The notes beneath the pieces were generated by a model, which worked only from the letters and a program-made list of their open reading frames with translations, had not been told where the DNA came from and made no database searches. The position numbers and the translations under genes are program-made. From a virus: a DNA stretch of 36,082 nucleotides. Shown here in pieces: positions 1,458-20,974 of this stretch. The stretch is taken from IMG/VR virus record IMGVR_UViG_3300025127_000113, positions 1-36,082 of that record; one strand, written 5' to 3'. Every line of letters begins with the position of its first letter. The first letter of the stretch is position 1.

Positions 1458-1594
1458 TACCAGAATTGTTTTGTGATATCAATGACTTAATAGATCAAGT
1501 AAATGATCTTAAACCTACAGATTCTACCTTTGAGATTGCTAAATCTCTTTCTGATTTAAAGAGTAAAATCAGAGAAGAATTTGTAGGCTTCTAG
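1436..1594 (+). CDS. Small hypothetical protein (52 aa)
   Basis: A 52-codon frame starts with ATG at 1436, inside the end of the preceding gene, and ends with TAG at 1592-1594. It has a clear ribosome-binding site (AGGTAAGG about 5 bases before the ATG). The predicted product starts MGYRTGLIPELFCDINDL and is mostly helical, acidic and soluble. Although short, it fills the gap up to the next promoter exactly, which supports its being real. No family is recognised. Confidence 0.5.
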   Translation: MGYRTGLIPELFCDINDLIDQVNDLKPTDSTFEIAKSLSDLKSKIREEFVGF

Positions 1595-3163: not shown

Positions 3164-3400
3164 ATGGATGAAAATAAAAAACAGTGCCAGGTATTTGACT
3201 TTGTTTCTATCAAGCAAGCGATAGAAGAAAAGAAAAATGAATTTGAAAGTCAAGTCTCTGATGAAGAGTGGGAAGATTGTGTATATACTTTATTTATTTT
3301 CATGTCTGAAAATGGATATGACCCTCATAAACAATCAGAGATAATAGAATTTGTTAAAGATTATTTTCCTGATCTACCATACAATGATAACGAGGATTGA
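3164..3400 (+). CDS. Small acidic hypothetical protein (78 aa)
   Basis: The ATG follows the previous TAA with no gap. The 78-residue product is acidic and helical, with KQAIEEKKNEFESQVSDEEW in the first half and a YTLFIFMSENGYDP segment in the second. No conserved motif or family is recognised. The gene lies in the tight block 2978-5434, where spacing is 0-5 bases or overlapping, so it is very likely co-transcribed with the primase-helicase. Confidence 0.6.
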   Translation: MDENKKQCQVFDFVSIKQAIEEKKNEFESQVSDEEWEDCVYTLFIFMSENGYDPHKQSEIIEFVKDYFPDLPYNDNED

Positions 3401-3403
3401 CCA

Positions 3404-3592
3404 ATGACTAAAAATTTATGGGAGAAAGAAGAACGCCAAGTGTTTCGATCTCTCACTCGACAGTACAAACAAGAAGGTTATGATATCAAAGAAGCTAAGA
3501 AGTTAGCTAGAGAAGAAACAAATGAGATTATGTTAGACAAGAAAGAGTTTGCAGAAAACTTATATCAACAGGCGTTAGAAGACTTTGATTGA
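3404..3592 (+). CDS. Small charged helical protein (62 aa)
   Basis: The 62-residue product is nearly all charged helix (LWEKEERQVFRSLTRQYKQE and KEAKKLAREETNEIMLDKKE). No family is recognised. The start has CGAGG about 8 bases upstream, overlapping the end of the previous gene. The 3' end overlaps the next gene by 8 bases in another frame. It may be a small nucleic-acid or protein-binding factor; nothing more can be said from sequence. Confidence 0.6.
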   Translation: MTKNLWEKEERQVFRSLTRQYKQEGYDIKEAKKLAREETNEIMLDKKEFAENLYQQALEDFD

Positions 3593-5434: not shown

Positions 5435-7068
5435 TGCCTTACTGTGTAGTAGATATTGAAACTGATGGTTTAGATGCTACTAAATTACACTGTATTGTAG
5501 CTAAAGATATAGCAACAAAGGAGGTTTATACCTGGGCAGAAGATGAATGCAAAGAGTTTCCTACATGGTCTAGTAAGTATGATAAGCTAATCATGCACAA
5601 TGGAATTAACTTTGATGGATACTGGTTAAACAAGTTACTTAATATGAGTATACCATTGAATAAGATTGAAGATACTCTTATCATGTCACAGTTATACAAT
5701 CCAGTGCGAGAAGAAGGACATTCTCTTAAAGCATGGGGTGATAAGTTAGATATGCCTAAAGGTGATGTAGATAGTTTTGATTACTATTCTCCTGAGATGC
5801 TTGAGTATTGTAAACAAGATACAAACATCACTTATAAATTATATACTGTGTTATCAGAAGAAGGTAAAAGATTTTCTACTCAATCTAAACAATTAGAATA
5901 CAAGGTACGTGCAATAATTGATCAACAGGAACGTAATGGGTTTGCTTTTAACATACAGAAAGGTCAGACACTATTGGCTACCCTTGAAGATGAAGCAAAC
6001 GAATTGAGTGATAATGCACAAGAGATGATACCACCTACAAAGGTAGAGTTAAAAACAAAGACAAAGTACATACCTTTCAATATAGGTTCTCGCCAACAGA
6101 TAGGCACAGTGTTACAGGATCGTGGATGGGAACCTAAATTATATACTGAGAAAGGTAACATCATAGTTAATGATGAAGTTTTATCTAAGATTGACATGGA
6201 CGAGGCTAGAATGTTTAGTCGCTATCTTTTATTACAGAAGCGTATAGCCCAGATTCGATCTTGGATAGAGAAGTGTGGGGATGAAGGCAGAGTTCATGGA
6301 AAAGTAATGACTCTCAAAACAATCACAGGGAGAATGGCACATAACAATCCTAATATGGCACAAGTGCCAGCCTCCTACTCTCCCTATGGTGCTGAGTGTC
6401 GTGAGCTTTGGACCGTTAGTAATCCCCACACTCATAAGTTAGTAGGTACTGATGCTTCAGGACTTGAGCTACGTATCCTAGCCTCTTACATGAAAGATCA
6501 ATCTTTTATTGACGAGGTTGTTAATGGTGATGTACATACAGCTAACATGAAGATGGCTGGCTTGCAGGATCGATCTCAAGCTAAGACATTTATTTATGCT
6601 TTGATGTATGGAGCAGGACCAGCAAAGATTGGTGCAGTGGTAGGTGGCTCTGCAAAAGAGGGACAAGAACTTACTAATAGGTTCTTAAAAAACATGCCAC
6701 GCTTGCGTAACCTACGTAATCAAGTGACAGAAGCAGCAGAGTCTGGTTTAATTAAAGGGTTAGACGGTAGACTTTTACACATACGTAATTCGTTCTCTGC
6801 TTTGAATACCTTAATTCAAGGAGCAGGAGCAGTTGTATGTAAACAATGGCTTGTGCATATGATGTCTAATGTATATGCTCAAGGTCTTGATGTTAAACTA
6901 GTAGGGAGTATTCATGATGAATATCAGTTTGAAGTAGCTAACCAGGATGTTAAAAAGTTTACAGAGATTACCCAGTATGCTATGACTAAGACTACAAAAA
7001 CTTTAAACTTAAACTGTCCTTTGGATAGTGAACATAAGGTAGGAACTACATGGCTACAAACACACTAA
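5434..7068 (+). CDS. Family A DNA polymerase with 3'-5' exonuclease (T7 gp5-like)
   Basis: The 544-residue enzyme replicates phage DNA. The exonuclease domain covers about residues 1-150: Exo I DIETD (Asp7, Glu9), Exo II MHNGINFDGYW (Asp61), Exo III YCKQDT (Tyr125, Asp129). The polymerase domain has motif A GTDASGLELRILA (Asp340), motif B RSQAKTFIYALMYGAG (Arg380, Lys384, Tyr388) and motif C SIHDEYQFE (His494, Asp495, Glu496). Tyr388 occupies the position of E. coli Pol I Phe762 and T7 Tyr526. At 544 aa it is shorter than T7 gp5 (704 aa), mainly between the exonuclease and palm. It is translationally coupled to the primase-helicase and overlaps the next nuclease by 19 bases. Confidence 0.95.
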   Translation: MPYCVVDIETDGLDATKLHCIVAKDIATKEVYTWAEDECKEFPTWSSKYDKLIMHNGINFDGYWLNKLLNMSIPLNKIEDTLIMSQLYNPVREEGHSLKAWGDKLDMPKGDVDSFDYYSPEMLEYCKQDTNITYKLYTVLSEEGKRFSTQSKQLEYKVRAIIDQQERNGFAFNIQKGQTLLATLEDEANELSDNAQEMIPPTKVELKTKTKYIPFNIGSRQQIGTVLQDRGWEPKLYTEKGNIIVNDEVLSKIDMDEARMFSRYLLLQKRIAQIRSWIEKCGDEGRVHGKVMTLKTITGRMAHNNPNMAQVPASYSPYGAECRELWTVSNPHTHKLVGTDASGLELRILASYMKDQSFIDEVVNGDVHTANMKMAGLQDRSQAKTFIYALMYGAGPAKIGAVVGGSAKEGQELTNRFLKNMPRLRNLRNQVTEAAESGLIKGLDGRLLHIRNSFSALNTLIQGAGAVVCKQWLVHMMSNVYAQGLDVKLVGSIHDEYQFEVANQDVKKFTEITQYAMTKTTKTLNLNCPLDSEHKVGTTWLQTH

Positions 7069-8168: not shown

Positions 8169-9038
8169 ATGAAAACAATTGATACATTAGTTGCTGATAT
8201 TTATTCTCTGTTTGAATCATCTGTACCTGATATGTCAGATGATGAAGTAGATAATATTATTGATAAGTTTGGTGATGCGCTAAAGGTACATTTAAAAAGA
8301 TTTATTTATGAAGAAGAACGTAGAAGAGATACTCTTCGACTATCTGCTATTGGTAAACCTGAAAGGCAGCAGTGGTATAGTGCATCTCCTCATTCAAAAG
8401 TTAAAGAGAATATAGAACTTCAAGGTAAAGATAAGATTAAATTTTTATATGGTTATATTTTAGAGGAACTATTACTTACCTTGTCTTCTCTCGCAGGACA
8501 TGAAGTTAAAGATGAGCAGAAAGAAGTATCAGTTGAGGGTGTACTAGGACATCAAGATGCTGTTATAGATAATGTATTGGTTGATTGTAAGTCCTCATCA
8601 GGTAGAGGCTTTGATAAATTTAAAAACAATTATGTATCTTCTGATGATCCCTTTGGATATATTGCACAGATATCTTCTTATGCTGAAGCTAATGGATTAA
8701 ATGAAGCTGCTTTCCTAGCTATCAATAAACAAACAGGTGAGATATGTTTATCTAAAGTTCATTCAATGGAAATGATTAATGCATCTGATAGAGTTAAGTA
8801 TATTAAAGACATGGTTAATCAAAGTAATCCACCAGCTAAATGTTATTCTGATGTTCCTGATGGTAAGTCTGGCAACCGTAAGCTGGATGTTGGTTGCATC
8901 TATTGTGATTACAAGCGTGATTGTTGGAAAGATGCTAATGGTGGTCAAGGATTACGTGTGTTTGATTATGCAACAAACCCTAGATATCTTACGCAAGTTT
9001 CTAAGATGCCTAACGTAGAAGAGATTGTAGATTGGTAA
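8169..9038 (+). CDS. RecB/Cas4-like PD-(D/E)XK exonuclease
   Basis: The 289-residue protein has the nuclease core of RecB/Cas4-type exonucleases. Seen in order are SAIGKPERQQWY near 59-70, a helix with FLYGYILEELLL (Glu99/Glu100), GHQDAVID (His128, Asp130), VDCKSSS (Asp139, Lys141) and AQISSYAEA (Gln167). A C-terminal cysteine cluster (Cys243, Cys246, Cys252, in GCIYCDYKRDCW) recalls the Fe-S cluster of Cas4-like enzymes, but the usual N-terminal Cys (PCxR) is replaced by PERQ. By position it probably fills the T7 gp6 role: degrading host DNA, removing primers and recombination. It has no free ribosome-binding site; translation appears linked to the upstream terminator hairpin. Its stop overlaps the next ATG by one base. 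Confidence 0.75.
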   Translation: MKTIDTLVADIYSLFESSVPDMSDDEVDNIIDKFGDALKVHLKRFIYEEERRRDTLRLSAIGKPERQQWYSASPHSKVKENIELQGKDKIKFLYGYILEELLLTLSSLAGHEVKDEQKEVSVEGVLGHQDAVIDNVLVDCKSSSGRGFDKFKNNYVSSDDPFGYIAQISSYAEANGLNEAAFLAINKQTGEICLSKVHSMEMINASDRVKYIKDMVNQSNPPAKCYSDVPDGKSGNRKLDVGCIYCDYKRDCWKDANGGQGLRVFDYATNPRYLTQVSKMPNVEEIVDW

Positions 9039-9436
9039 TGCATTGGAAGTACATAGGTAAACCTGACATTCAAAATAAATTTGGTTTTGTATATATCATT
9101 ACAAATAAGAAAACAGGTAAAGCTTATATAGGATGTAAGCAGTATTGGCACTACAAGAAAGGTAAGAAAGCTAGACAATCTAATTGGAAAGTTTATATGG
9201 GTTCTTCTAAATCTTTAACAGAAGACATTAAAAAACTAGGTAAAAGAAATTTTAAGTTTGAGATGTTAGCTGAATACAAAAACAAAAGAAGCTTGAGATA
9301 TTATGAATGTTATTATCAAATGAAATATAATGTTCTTGCTTCTGTTCTTGAAGGTACAGACGAACCAGCATTTTATAACAACTATGTAGGAGGAAAATGG
9401 TATAGACCAGTGGAGAGCTATGAATCAGAACTATAG
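9038..9436 (+). CDS. GIY-YIG-type endonuclease-like protein
   Basis: The 132-residue product has the hallmark of a GIY-YIG fold: FGFVYIITNKKTGKAYIGCK at 15-34 (VYI and YIG strands), then NWKVYMGSSKSL, a helix EDIKKLGKRNFKFEMLAEY and YECYYQ. Related free-standing proteins in phages are Seg-like homing nucleases or, without a mobile role, DNA-processing enzymes. No intron or intein splits a neighbouring replication gene here, so homing cannot be shown. The C terminus contains YNNYVGGKWYRP, which recurs in these phage proteins. The TAATG overlap with the exonuclease supports ATG 9038 over an in-frame TTG at 9032. Confidence 0.65.
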   Translation: MHWKYIGKPDIQNKFGFVYIITNKKTGKAYIGCKQYWHYKKGKKARQSNWKVYMGSSKSLTEDIKKLGKRNFKFEMLAEYKNKRSLRYYECYYQMKYNVLASVLEGTDEPAFYNNYVGGKWYRPVESYESEL

Positions 9437-13158: not shown

Positions 13159-13331
13159 AATTATATACTAACGATGAAGACTTTGATCTGTTGCACCAAG
13201 CAGCAGATAAAGCTAGAAAAAATGCTAAAGAAGTAAAAGTTTCTAGACAGGCTCTTATAAATATACTTATGGATCATTCACATTTAGTAAGGTCAGTAAA
13301 AGAATTAGGAGATGATGTAGAATTTAGTTGA
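13155..13331 (+). CDS. Small hypothetical protein (58 aa)
   Basis: The 58-residue product (MKLYTNDEDFDLLHQAADKA...) is mostly helical, with a central LINILMDHSHLVRSVKELG. The frame is open from 13110, but ATG 13155 overlaps the ThyX stop as ATGA and is the natural coupled start. Its stop codon lies within the -35 box of the hsp20 promoter. No family is recognised. It closes the nucleotide-metabolism transcript; no terminator is visible after it, so read-through into hsp20 is possible. Confidence 0.6.
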   Translation: MKLYTNDEDFDLLHQAADKARKNAKEVKVSRQALINILMDHSHLVRSVKELGDDVEFS

Positions 13332-13356
13332 CTTTACATTTAAGATATGATATAAT
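13328..13356 (+). promoter_or_regulatory. Sigma70-type promoter P4 for hsp20
   Basis: TTGACT at 13328-13333 and TATAAT at 13351-13356 with a 17-base spacer form a near-consensus promoter. The sequence TATAATTCGT is shared with promoter P3. The expected start near 13363 gives a leader of about 55 bases that contains two hairpins (next entry). Confidence 0.8.
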
Positions 13357-13366
13357 TCGTAATATA

Positions 13367-13412
13367 GTAGAGAATGCTTTTGGTTCTCTACCTTCTTGCT
13401 AACAAAGGAGAA
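13367..13412 (+). promoter_or_regulatory. ROSE-like RNA thermometer in hsp20 leader
   Basis: Two hairpins fill the leader. The first is a perfect 8-base stem, GTAGAGAA (13367-13374) with TTCTCTAC (13384-13391). The second pairs TTCTTGCT (13393-13400) with the ribosome-binding site AGGAGAA (13406-13412) across a 5-base loop AACAA. All pairs form if one G (13398) is bulged, with one G-U wobble. The element contains TTGCT at 13396-13400, matching the UYGCU box of ROSE heat sensors, which sits opposite the Shine-Dalgarno with a bulged G and melts on warming. The gene it controls is an Hsp20 protein, the classic ROSE target. Pairing is seen; heat control is inferred. Confidence 0.65.
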
Positions 13413-13416
13413 CAAT

Positions 13417-13860
13417 ATGAACAGATCGTATCCTAACTTTCCATCTCATGTGTGGAATAATTTTTTTGAGCAATCAGTTGGTTTTGATAAATTACTATCT
13501 AATATAGATAACTATTATCTCAACGTAGATAAGAAACCCTCTTATCCTCCTTATAATATTATTAGAAATAGTGAGTCATCTTATCAAATTGTTATTGCCC
13601 TAGCAGGTTTTAGCAGTGAAGATATTACTGTAAGTTTAAATGAAAATATTTTAACTGTAATAGGAGATGTAAAATCAGATGACAACCCAGATAAATACTT
13701 AATAAAAGGTATTGCTTCTAGAAAATTTGAAAAACTATTCTCACTAAATGAATATGCTATTGTAGATAGTGTATCATTTAAAAATGGTGTGCTAGATATT
13801 AAAATTAATATTGTGTTACCTGAAGAGAAACAACCTCAGACCTTTACTATAGAGGAGTAA
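13417..13860 (+). CDS. Small heat-shock protein (Hsp20/IbpA family)
   Basis: The 147-residue protein is an ATP-independent chaperone that holds unfolding proteins. The N terminus (NRSYPNFPSHVWNNFFEQSVGFDKLL) matches IbpA-type proteins. The alpha-crystallin domain covers about 43-130: PPYNIIRNSESSYQIVIALAG, then SSEDITVSLNENILTVIG, IASRKFEKLFSLNEYA and NGVLDIKINIVLPEE with the family A-x-x-x-N-G-V-L motif. The tail QPQTFTIEE provides an I-x-E-like end in place of a clear I-x-I. An in-frame TTG at 13396 would include the leader hairpin; ATG 13417 after AGGAGAACAAT is preferred. It has its own promoter, a thermometer-like leader, and leads the glycan-enzyme cassette. Confidence 0.92.
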   Translation: MNRSYPNFPSHVWNNFFEQSVGFDKLLSNIDNYYLNVDKKPSYPPYNIIRNSESSYQIVIALAGFSSEDITVSLNENILTVIGDVKSDDNPDKYLIKGIASRKFEKLFSLNEYAIVDSVSFKNGVLDIKINIVLPEEKQPQTFTIEE

Positions 13861-18952: not shown

Positions 18953-19343
18953 ACAAGAAAAATTTGCACAGTCCTATGTGTTACATCGTAACGCAACGGA
19001 TGCAGCAAAAGCAGCAGGGTATTCTGAGAAGTCTGCAAATAATCAAGGGTACAGATTGTTGCAGATAGATGAAGTCGTAGCCAGAATTGAGGAACTGGAA
19101 AACGAACTTGTTACAGATATTGATGTTGTTGATGAACTAGAATCTCAGTATACCTTTGCTGCTACTCATGGACATACAAACAGTGCTATCAAAGCACTTG
19201 AATTATTATCTAGAGTACGAGGAGCTAAGTCCGATAGGACAGCACACTTATCTACAGAAACTATTGAGCAAGAGATTATTAATTACATGCAAGCTTTAGG
19301 TAAAGATAAGATAGATGAGCTAGTTAAGAAGTGTAAATTCTAA
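18936..19343 (+). CDS. terS: Terminase small subunit
   Basis: The 135-residue protein matches the Terminase_2-type small subunit that recognises phage DNA for packaging. The N terminus has the family pattern LNSKQEKFAQSYVLHRNATD followed by AAKAAGYSEKSANNQGYRLL, a helix-turn-helix DNA-binding unit, then IEELENEL and a helical oligomerisation region. The start lies 17 bases inside the preceding membrane protein gene. No large terminase follows: the gene is the last on the + strand and runs head-on into the late operon, with which it shares 4 bases at the stop codons. The large subunit must therefore be encoded elsewhere, probably beyond the right edge. Confidence 0.8.
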   Translation: MSLNSKQEKFAQSYVLHRNATDAAKAAGYSEKSANNQGYRLLQIDEVVARIEELENELVTDIDVVDELESQYTFAATHGHTNSAIKALELLSRVRGAKSDRTAHLSTETIEQEIINYMQALGKDKIDELVKKCKF

Positions 19344-20974
19344 GCAGCAATCTGTTTAAATTTTCTATTGTACTCATCTTTCATACTACCTTCATAAGCA
19401 TTATTATTTCCTAGTTTGTAATCTTCGCCTAACCATTCCCCTCTAACTGCTCTACCTCTGAGAGTTCTTATATTATTTGCTGTATATGTGTAGTTATCTT
19501 TGGTTTCAAGATTGTATACTACCTGGTTCTTTAATTTACCTTGAGCAGGTTCTACTCTTGTTACTTCAATTAGTTCACCATCAGCACCTAATATAGTATC
19601 TCCTACATTTAACCATTGAACAACGGCAGCAGTACCATCTCCTTTAATTATCCATTCAGTTGCAGAAACCATTGAGTCATTTAAGTGCCAAATAACTGAT
19701 GAGATATCTACAAGTAGAGATATAATTGGTTTAGCTTCTAAAGGAGTGTTCCATCTCCTAGTAGCTTGATCCTCTGGATAAGACATAATCATATCACCAA
19801 CTTTTAAATCTTCAATATTCTGATATGTATTATCTGCCATTAATATTTGAGTTCCTGCTATCCAACATGCAGACCCTGCTGAACTTCCAAAACCACCGCT
19901 TGATCCTCGTGATCTAGATGAACCTCTACGACTTCTAGATTGAGAGGCTCGTTCTCTGGCTGTAAAGCTTGGGCTATCACTTGTATCATCTGCACCTGTT
20001 CGACCACCAATACCTCCAAATCCAGCACCTATATCAGAACCTCTTCCACCACCAGAAGAACTTCCACCTGCAAGAGCTTTTTCAAATGCATCTAAGTCTG
20101 CTTTAGTAATTGGCTCCATATCAAAATTTAATGTATCAAAAGCAGGGTCTACAGTAGTGTCTCCAAAGAAAAAGCTAGATTCAGTGCCGCTGATACCTAA
20201 TCCTACATCTGGATCACTAAATCTATCACTATCATCATCATCATCAAAGAAATCTCTTGCTAAATTAGCAATAAAAATAAGTGGCACTAATGGAGGTGCA
20301 ACTAGTGCAGCTATGCCTGTTGCTACATCAAATCCATAATCTGCTGCATCAGATTCTCGACCTGTTATTTTATCAGTTAAAAACCTTCCTATGCCAGGGA
20401 CAGCAGCACCTAGAAATTTATTTCCAGCTTGAATAGCAGCTTGGTTAAGTGTGCTATTAACAACCTTTGAAATCAATGTATTTTTTATATTTCTCTTTTT
20501 ACCGAAAGCTGTAAATGTTCCTTCACCAAAGTCTACACCAAATGCATCTCGACTAGTTGCTTCAGATATTTTATCTCCTATTTTATTTAAAAGTCCTGTG
20601 TCTCCTCTTTCGCCAATATATCTAGGTGCAAATGGTCCTACAATACTGTCAGTAGTTGTTGCAGGTGCTTCTACTGTGTCAGCAGTAGGAGTAGAAGGAG
20701 GACGAGGAGGAGGAGAAAGTTGCCGTCTTCCACCTGAAGAACGTATTCCAGGAGCTAATTCATCAGGCGCTCTTAGTGATCCTATACCAGTATTTTGTTG
20801 TGGTATTTGTCCTGCTTCAATCTTTTGTCGTGCTATTTCTAACCGAGGAAGACCAGCAAGCTGACCAAAAATATTTAACTCTTGATTATCATCAGTTCCA
20901 ACAGATTGCCCTTCCTGTCTACGAACGGGAACAAAGCTGGCTAAACCAGTATTATCTATTGGAACTGTAAACAT
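19340..20974 (-). CDS. Virion-type protein with C-terminal Hint domain
   Basis: The 544-residue protein is the last gene of the - strand operon. Residues 1-110 are Pro/Gly/Ser-rich. 140-240 contain a Gly/Ala-rich segment with a hydrophobic run (GIAALVAPPLVPLIFIANLA, 220-239), followed by an acidic Asp run. 300-369 are a Gly/Ser/Arg low-complexity linker. From Cys370 a Hint (intein/hedgehog-like) autoprocessing domain begins: CWIAGTQILMADNTYQNIED, LKVGDMIMSY, a block-B-like SATEWIIKGDG, WLNVGDTI and VYNLETKDNYTYTANNIRTL to about 505. The usual TxxH His appears replaced by Glu, and the terminal His-Asn is missing. The N part resembles the neighbouring internal-virion proteins. Self-cleavage at Cys370 is possible but unproved. 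Confidence 0.7.
   Translation of the reverse strand: MFTVPIDNTGLASFVPVRRQEGQSVGTDDNQELNIFGQLAGLPRLEIARQKIEAGQIPQQNTGIGSLRAPDELAPGIRSSGGRRQLSPPPRPPSTPTADTVEAPATTTDSIVGPFAPRYIGERGDTGLLNKIGDKISEATSRDAFGVDFGEGTFTAFGKKRNIKNTLISKVVNSTLNQAAIQAGNKFLGAAVPGIGRFLTDKITGRESDAADYGFDVATGIAALVAPPLVPLIFIANLARDFFDDDDDSDRFSDPDVGLGISGTESSFFFGDTTVDPAFDTLNFDMEPITKADLDAFEKALAGGSSSGGGRGSDIGAGFGGIGGRTGADDTSDSPSFTARERASQSRSRRGSSRSRGSSGGFGSSAGSACWIAGTQILMADNTYQNIEDLKVGDMIMSYPEDQATRRWNTPLEAKPIISLLVDISSVIWHLNDSMVSATEWIIKGDGTAAVVQWLNVGDTILGADGELIEVTRVEPAQGKLKNQVVYNLETKDNYTYTANNIRTLRGRAVRGEWLGEDYKLGNNNAYEGSMKDEYNRKFKQIAA
19460..19867 (-). other. Hint (intein/hedgehog-like) domain within the 544-aa protein
   Basis: The domain runs from Cys370 (codon at 19865-19867) to about residue 505. 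Visible intein-like blocks are A (CWIAGTQILM...GDMIMSY), a diverged B (SATEWI), and F (VYNLETKDNYTYTAN). There is no homing endonuclease insert and no His-Asn plus Cys/Ser/Thr at the end, so protein splicing is not expected; N-terminal cleavage is the most that could occur. Confidence 0.7.

Follow-up and report, generated by a model that had tools for sequence, protein, structure and literature searches.

A ROSE-like RNA leader precedes hsp20 and dnaK genes in diverse phages

Introduction

ROSE-like RNA thermometers are recognised by their location in the 5' leader of a small heat-shock protein (sHsp) gene, by two to four hairpins of which the 3'-most contains the Shine-Dalgarno (SD) sequence, and by a U(U/C)GCU box that pairs imperfectly with the SD and leaves a G bulged. 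ROSE_3 (RF02523) is a two-hairpin ROSE-like thermometer of Pseudomonas ibpA (PMC3669281). Members of the ROSE (RF00435) and ROSE_2 (RF01832) families, known from rhizobial hspA and enterobacterial ibpA, likewise place a UYGCU box, one G of it bulged, opposite the SD of an sHsp gene, as does the phage leader described here, but they differ from it in having three or four hairpins (PMC3669281). A review described ROSE elements as always lying on bacterial sHsp genes (PMC4166951), and ROSE-like elements are now also known upstream of ABC transporters (PMC11342760). In E. coli, IbpA represses its own mRNA through the 5' UTR and is released by aggregates; this self-repression depends on Arg93, which chaperone activity does not need, and also requires an aromatic residue at position 34 and positive charge at positions 97 and 98, and R93K abolishes it (PMC10474464).

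A 2024 list of phage RNA thermometers held three, namely lambda cIII, the SPbeta blyA fourU and the sigma70 thermometer of a gut Caudoviricetes (PMC11182007). These too are temperature-responsive 5' leaders on phage genes, but they belong to other structural classes and act on other targets, and none is ROSE-like or lies on a chaperone gene. Hsp20 itself has been counted among the core genes of cyanophages, its purpose being unclear (PMC7674155). Here we describe a ROSE-like leader on a phage hsp20 gene and its occurrence before chaperone genes of other phages.

Results

The window, that is, the whole stretch of DNA analysed, is a 36,082-base virus record. It is a tailed-phage contig encoding a primase/helicase, a DNA polymerase, an SSB, a Cas4-type exonuclease, a class II RNR and ThyX, together with a terminase small subunit, virion proteins and endolysins. 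A 134-aa homing endonuclease-related ORF (9032-9436) adjoins the Cas4-type exonuclease and class II RNR genes. On the minus strand, a 544-aa ORF (19343-20974) has a Hint (intein-like) motif match confined to residues 370-398 (PF05203) and a weak PDZ match, and is possibly a remnant or a novel protein. The hsp20 gene and its leader comprise the following features.

13328..13356, plus strand: sigma70-type promoter with an extended -10, TTGACT-17-TATAAT, from direct reading and kept in 7 close relatives
13367..13391, plus strand: hairpin I, GUAGAGAA-U-(bulged G)-C-UUUU-G-G-UUCUCUAC, from direct reading, the fold and the family pattern
13393..13400, plus strand: anti-SD strand UUCUUGCU with the ROSE box UUGCU at 13396-13400 and bulged G13398, from direct reading, with flanking pairs that covary with the SD
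13406..13412, plus strand: SD strand AGGAGAA of hairpin II, from direct reading, the covariance model and covariation
13417..13860, plus strand: hsp20, an IbpA-like small heat-shock protein of 147 aa (PF00011, E 1.3e-14; phrog_432, E 8e-35)

The promoter matches the consensus at 11 of 12 positions, with the -35 at 13328-13333, a spacer of 17 nt and the -10 at 13351-13356 preceded by TG. Transcription of hsp20 would thus start at about 13362-13364, immediately 5' of hairpin I. The arms of hairpin I, GTAGAGAA (13367-13374) and TTCTCTAC (13384-13391), are fully complementary, and the hairpin obeys the family pattern of a variable stem, a U.G or C-G pair, a bulged G and a C-G pair, a parsing across the family in which the bulged G was slightly rewarded by the scoring. 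In hairpin II, TTCTTGCT (13393-13400) pairs with AGGAGAA (13406-13412) once G13398 is left unpaired, and 4 nt separate the SD strand from the hsp20 ATG (13417). The preliminary description of this DNA, made from its letters, had proposed an hsp20 gene with its own promoter, an 8-base hairpin and a bulged-G pairing of a UYGCU-type box with the SD; direct reading bore out these elements and their coordinates, and the protein matches agreed with the gene call. The window leader thus lies 5' of an sHsp gene and has two hairpins with the SD in the 3'-most, and covariation in relatives suggests that its box is imperfectly paired to the SD around a bulged G.

Other readings of the leader were dropped: hairpin I as a terminator, because no T run follows it; a fourU thermometer, because the anti-SD strand is UUCUUGCU and not four consecutive U; and a preQ1-II riboswitch, whose weak Rfam match is the SD region.

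Folding gave -16.7 kcal/mol for the window leader compared to -10.2 kcal/mol for shuffles (z -2.5), with 5 of 200 shuffles equally good. The minimum-energy fold has two hairpins, but the register of its hairpin II differs, setting CUUCUU against AAGGAG with no bulge. The first pair of this register depends on C13392, a position at which the close relatives, the identical L001 apart, have A, and it is the bulged-G register that is backed by covariation. Since several other leaders in the window also cover their own SD when folded, folding alone is weak evidence. Folding at increasing temperature, which the preliminary description had called for, opened the window SD hardly at all up to 47 C in the nearest-neighbour model; a ROSE_3 control likewise stayed closed to 47 C, and some other leaders of the window were just as closed, indicating that the model handles this motif poorly and that the result neither supports nor refutes a thermometer.

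Blastn of this region of the window against phage records gave no match. We searched for the leader in other phages by two routes. A DNA-only pattern with the 17 specified bases of TTCTTGCTNNNAAAGGAGAA, which covers box and SD and uses no protein information, was scanned against 2.9 million viral contigs and found 47 stretches, most of them immediately 5' of Hsp20 start codons in very diverse phages. The Hsp20s at these loci are mostly about 30-40% identical to the window Hsp20, and a hairpin of the same shape but different sequence stands upstream of the box. Conversely, a profile of diverse Hsp20s selected 80 viral loci by protein only. Of the 76 leaders for which a start was called, 72 had box and SD (44 of 48 when nonredundant); among 37 other ORFs with an SD at these loci, none did.

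Four leaders were exceptions. In L072 and L117 the element sits before an upstream small ORF of the hsp20 operon, in L099 the start is miscalled and the element is present, and L102 has a TTGCA box yet gave a 45.7-bit match to the covariance model described below. The element is also present in L083 and L095, which have no called start. L088 and L091 passed the box/SD test by accident, with the real element further upstream, so that in L072, L088, L091 and L117 alike the whole element precedes a 72-74-aa ORF followed by hsp20 in one operon. This small ORF looks phasin-like and has no Pfam match (L072:1687-1960, L088:1296-1565, L091:503-780, L117:1674-1950).

We then relied on a covariance model, R1, seeded with 10 phage hsp20 leaders from which the window and its close relatives were left out. 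Raw leaders aligned with MAFFT had misaligned stems, and a length-matched seed with covariance alignment was used instead. In the window, R1 had a single match.

13369..13413, plus strand: R1 match, the sole one in the 36-kb window, 21.9 bits, E 1.5e-4, full length (1-55/55)

R1 matched 84 of 88 loci (85 matches), with none at E<=1 in L083, L089, L142 and L148. Among 13 cultured phage genomes searched with strict filters, the hsp20 leader was the sole match in 6 and no match was found in 6; Atu_ph07 had one weak off-target match. The leader was found in the Pelagibacter phages HTVC115P, HTVC103P and Mosig, Methylophilales phage Melnitz, the Prochlorococcus phages P-SSM4 and P-RSM1, the Synechococcus phages S-RSM4, S-MbCM7 and S-CAM1, Agrobacterium phage Atu_ph07 and Sinorhizobium phage Phosso. 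It was not found in the Vibrio phages PWH3a-P1 (L142) and VpB-34 (L148), which do carry hsp20.

The RNA structure is supported by covariation across the family, the window and its close relatives being too similar for covariation of their own. In the R1 alignment 93.6% of cells are paired, 15 of 18 pairs change on both sides, including 11/11 pairs of the hairpin I helix, and the covariation score was 0.526 compared to 0.153 for shuffled alignments and at most 0.093 for slid structures. As this alignment is fitted to the structure, we additionally counted hairpin II pairs straight from the leaders, excluding pattern-selected loci, with shuffle tests that ignore shared ancestry. The box-1/SD5 position was paired in 42 of 42 leaders, including AGGAC opposite G (S-RSM4/S-MbCM7 type) and AGGAT opposite A (HTVC103P). 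The box-2/SD+1 position, as U-A, C-G or A-U, was paired in 29 of 42 against 16.2 by shuffle, and the innermost pair, as U-A or A-U, in 30 of 33 against 20.4. The outermost pair, box-3/SD+2, was not significant in this set.

An Rfam scan of the window leader returned no match at gathering thresholds and no ROSE family even at E<=10, and the RF01832 and RF02523 models run on the window had no match at the leader, which is therefore not an RF02523 member by that family's own threshold. ROSE_2 matched neither the window nor any phage hsp20 leader checked. Some phage leaders, however, align full-length to ROSE_3 at 24-34 bits, the best relative reaching 34.1 bits against a gathering threshold of 43, and R1 in turn detects a true ROSE_3 element (L146, E 0.016). 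R1 also matches hsp20 leaders of SAR11-type and SAR86-type bacteria. The preliminary description had regarded the absence of an Rfam match as grounds for rejecting a ROSE element; the window has none, and the relatives together with the covariance model overturn this as a refutation. Judged by anatomy and bridging homology, the phage leaders are ROSE-like and nearest to ROSE_3, with which they share two hairpins, a hairpin I with U, bulged G, CC(G)...(C)GG and G, a hairpin II with YUYGCU against the SD, and a position directly 5' of an IbpA-type gene. Unlike ROSE_3, they are AT-rich, score below threshold, stand on phage promoters and also occur on dnaK.

The dnaK association emerged from one hsp20 contig, in which a second strong R1 match lies directly before dnaK. 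We collected 80 viral contigs carrying phrog_22485 dnaK (L243-L322). The box precedes dnaK in 68 of them. In 73, dnaK is followed by hsp20, and in 63 the leader of the following gene has a box of its own; the elements lie at contig positions of about 1447-1497 (before dnaK) and about 3415-3470 (before hsp20). R1 matched 14 of 17 dnaK contigs, once or twice each and always at the dnaK and hsp20 leaders; the three without a match include a subgroup in which UUACU replaces UUGCU before dnaK. A T4-type capsid gene is present in 5 of the 17, and as two of these five also have R1 matches, there are true phages among the dnaK contigs. Large aquatic phages thus carry a dnaK-hsp20 pair with one copy of the leader per gene (in L054 at 6741-6789 and 8713-8760) and no other confident match. 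That the leader goes with two chaperone genes speaks against its being a general feature of late mRNAs.

R1 matches were also seen before other genes. On L155, a T4-like phage contig that also has an hsp20 leader, a second ROSE-like leader (3212-3278, minus strand; R1 29.2 bits, ROSE_3 21.2 bits) precedes an 89-aa acidic ORF adjoining a sliding-clamp-like gene. On L330, from an AT-rich alphaproteobacterial genome, a 28.4-bit R1 match (1480-1534, minus strand) lies before an rpoH-like sigma factor gene, where ROSE-like control of sigma32 is possible.

Finally, we compared the promoters in front of the leader. In the SAR11-type bacterium HIMB114 a sigma32-type promoter, CTTGAAA...CCCATAT, stands in front of it. 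Of 102 phage leaders, 42 have the T4-type late promoter TATAAATA there, which in 38 of these 42 lies 7-11 nt upstream of the pairing 5' of the bulged G, and in the window family the leader lies behind a sigma70 extended -10. This placement means that transcripts should in every case begin at hairpin I or only slightly upstream of it. The RNA has been kept while the promoter was swapped, sigma32 serving in SAR11 bacteria and T4-late or sigma70 promoters in phages. In the protein tree, phage Hsp20s are old, diverse and deeply diverged, many being about 30-40% identical. The tree groups the Hsp20s of HIMB114 and Pelagibacter phage Mosig as sisters (100/100), which shows exchange between SAR11 and its phages. 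The window Hsp20 has a long branch and an unsure position. The contig L173, binned as Sphingobacteriales, has an hsp20 leader near-identical to that of phages L057/L061 with a T4-type late promoter, and is probably phage sequence in the bin.

Discussion

We consider it likely that the window leader works as a translational switch of ROSE-like type, keeping the ribosome-binding site covered until stress. Transcription from the strong phage promoter would begin a few bases 5' of hairpin I, which would form a stable 5' hairpin. In hairpin II the UUGCU box would lie on the SD and block ribosome loading in the unstressed cell, the bulged G keeping the helix weak, such that heat or a physiological equivalent could open it and Hsp20 would be made. 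Occlusion of the SD in vivo, its opening on warming and a benefit to the phage are predictions of this scheme, and the leader may respond to heat, to aggregation or to both. Phage lineages would have taken over a unit of hsp20 and RNA switch common to proteobacterial ibpA genes, replacing the bacterial sigma32 heat-shock promoter with promoters of their own, and some large phages would have added the switch to dnaK. Thus, from the preliminary proposal of a ROSE-like thermometer, a ROSE-type two-hairpin leader that is conserved in very diverse phages and akin to ROSE_3 stands, whereas fever-like stress as the trigger is unsupported, as is a specific role in virion protein folding.

Many element-bearing phages come from aquatic habitats with modest temperature swings, so heat is not an obvious natural signal. 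The strongest rival, and a serious alternative to which we give somewhat less than an even chance, is that the leader is an aggregation sensor: phage Hsp20 would repress its own translation through the leader until misfolded protein, for example virion protein, titrates it away. Such IbpA-style autoregulation, absent from the preliminary interpretation, is equally compatible with the leader, can coexist with a thermometer and would suit phages of temperature-stable water. By analogy with E. coli (PMC10474464), the phage case would combine a ROSE-type leader with an sHsp bearing the RNA-binding arginine; the window Hsp20 keeps Arg and Tyr at the Arg93 and Tyr34 equivalents, as expected of IbpA-type autoregulation. 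Across 108 phage Hsp20s, Arg stands at the equivalent of position 93 in 93, and Tyr or Phe at that of position 34 in 107; in PWH3a-P1 and VpB-34, the Vibrio phages without the element, position 93 is Ser. However, the other 15 of the 108 have Lys at 93 and these phages still have the leader, Lys98 is not kept in the window protein, which has Leu there although Lys at 97, and control of the dnaK leader would require Hsp20 to act in trans.

That the hairpins stabilise the 5' end of the mRNA and tune translation at a fixed level, with no sensing, seems improbable to us. Hairpin I does start within a few bases of the predicted transcript start, with TATAAATA at a fixed distance in 38/42, and an mRNA-stability role has been proposed for hairpin I of Pseudomonas ibpA (PMC3669281), but this would leave unexplained why the UYGCU box is conserved, why it covaries with the SD and why the element is confined to chaperone genes. 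Related leaders in SAR11, SAR86-like and Pseudomonas-type bacteria could also suggest a leftover that arrived with a captured bacterial ibpA and no longer works in phages; we regard this as very unlikely, since a near-universal element with compensatory changes across deeply diverged Hsp20s must be under selection. An AT-rich leader that folds by chance, as other window leaders fold over their SD while Rfam is silent, is refuted by the held-out R1 match, single in 36 kb, by the control ORFs and by covariation, and we give it practically no weight.

More broadly, we lean slightly towards the view that phages of several host groups own a chaperone regulon, hsp20 alone or, in large aquatic phages, dnaK with hsp20, in which each gene has a ROSE-like sensor, phage promoters replace sigma32, and heat or misfolded virion protein gates the chaperone supply while the phage infects its host. 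Searching the text of two papers on cyanophage sHsps, phage-borne proteins of the same family (PMC3827213, PMC5028025), brought up nothing on a leader element, a UTR or a thermometer, nor does a thermometer figure in a paper on large aquatic phages that encode DnaK/Hsp20. Judged from the open-access literature, the ROSE-like leader on phage chaperones is likely to be new.

Taken together, our results add viruses, and a dnaK gene, to the known range of ROSE-like leaders, and provide a case of an RNA sensor retained while its promoter was exchanged. A conserved switch on phage hsp20 and dnaK would mean that these chaperones are made conditionally rather than constitutively, and heat or misfolded protein is probably the cue by which many phages limit how much of their own chaperones they make. 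The purpose of phage sHsps, long open, thereby becomes testable.
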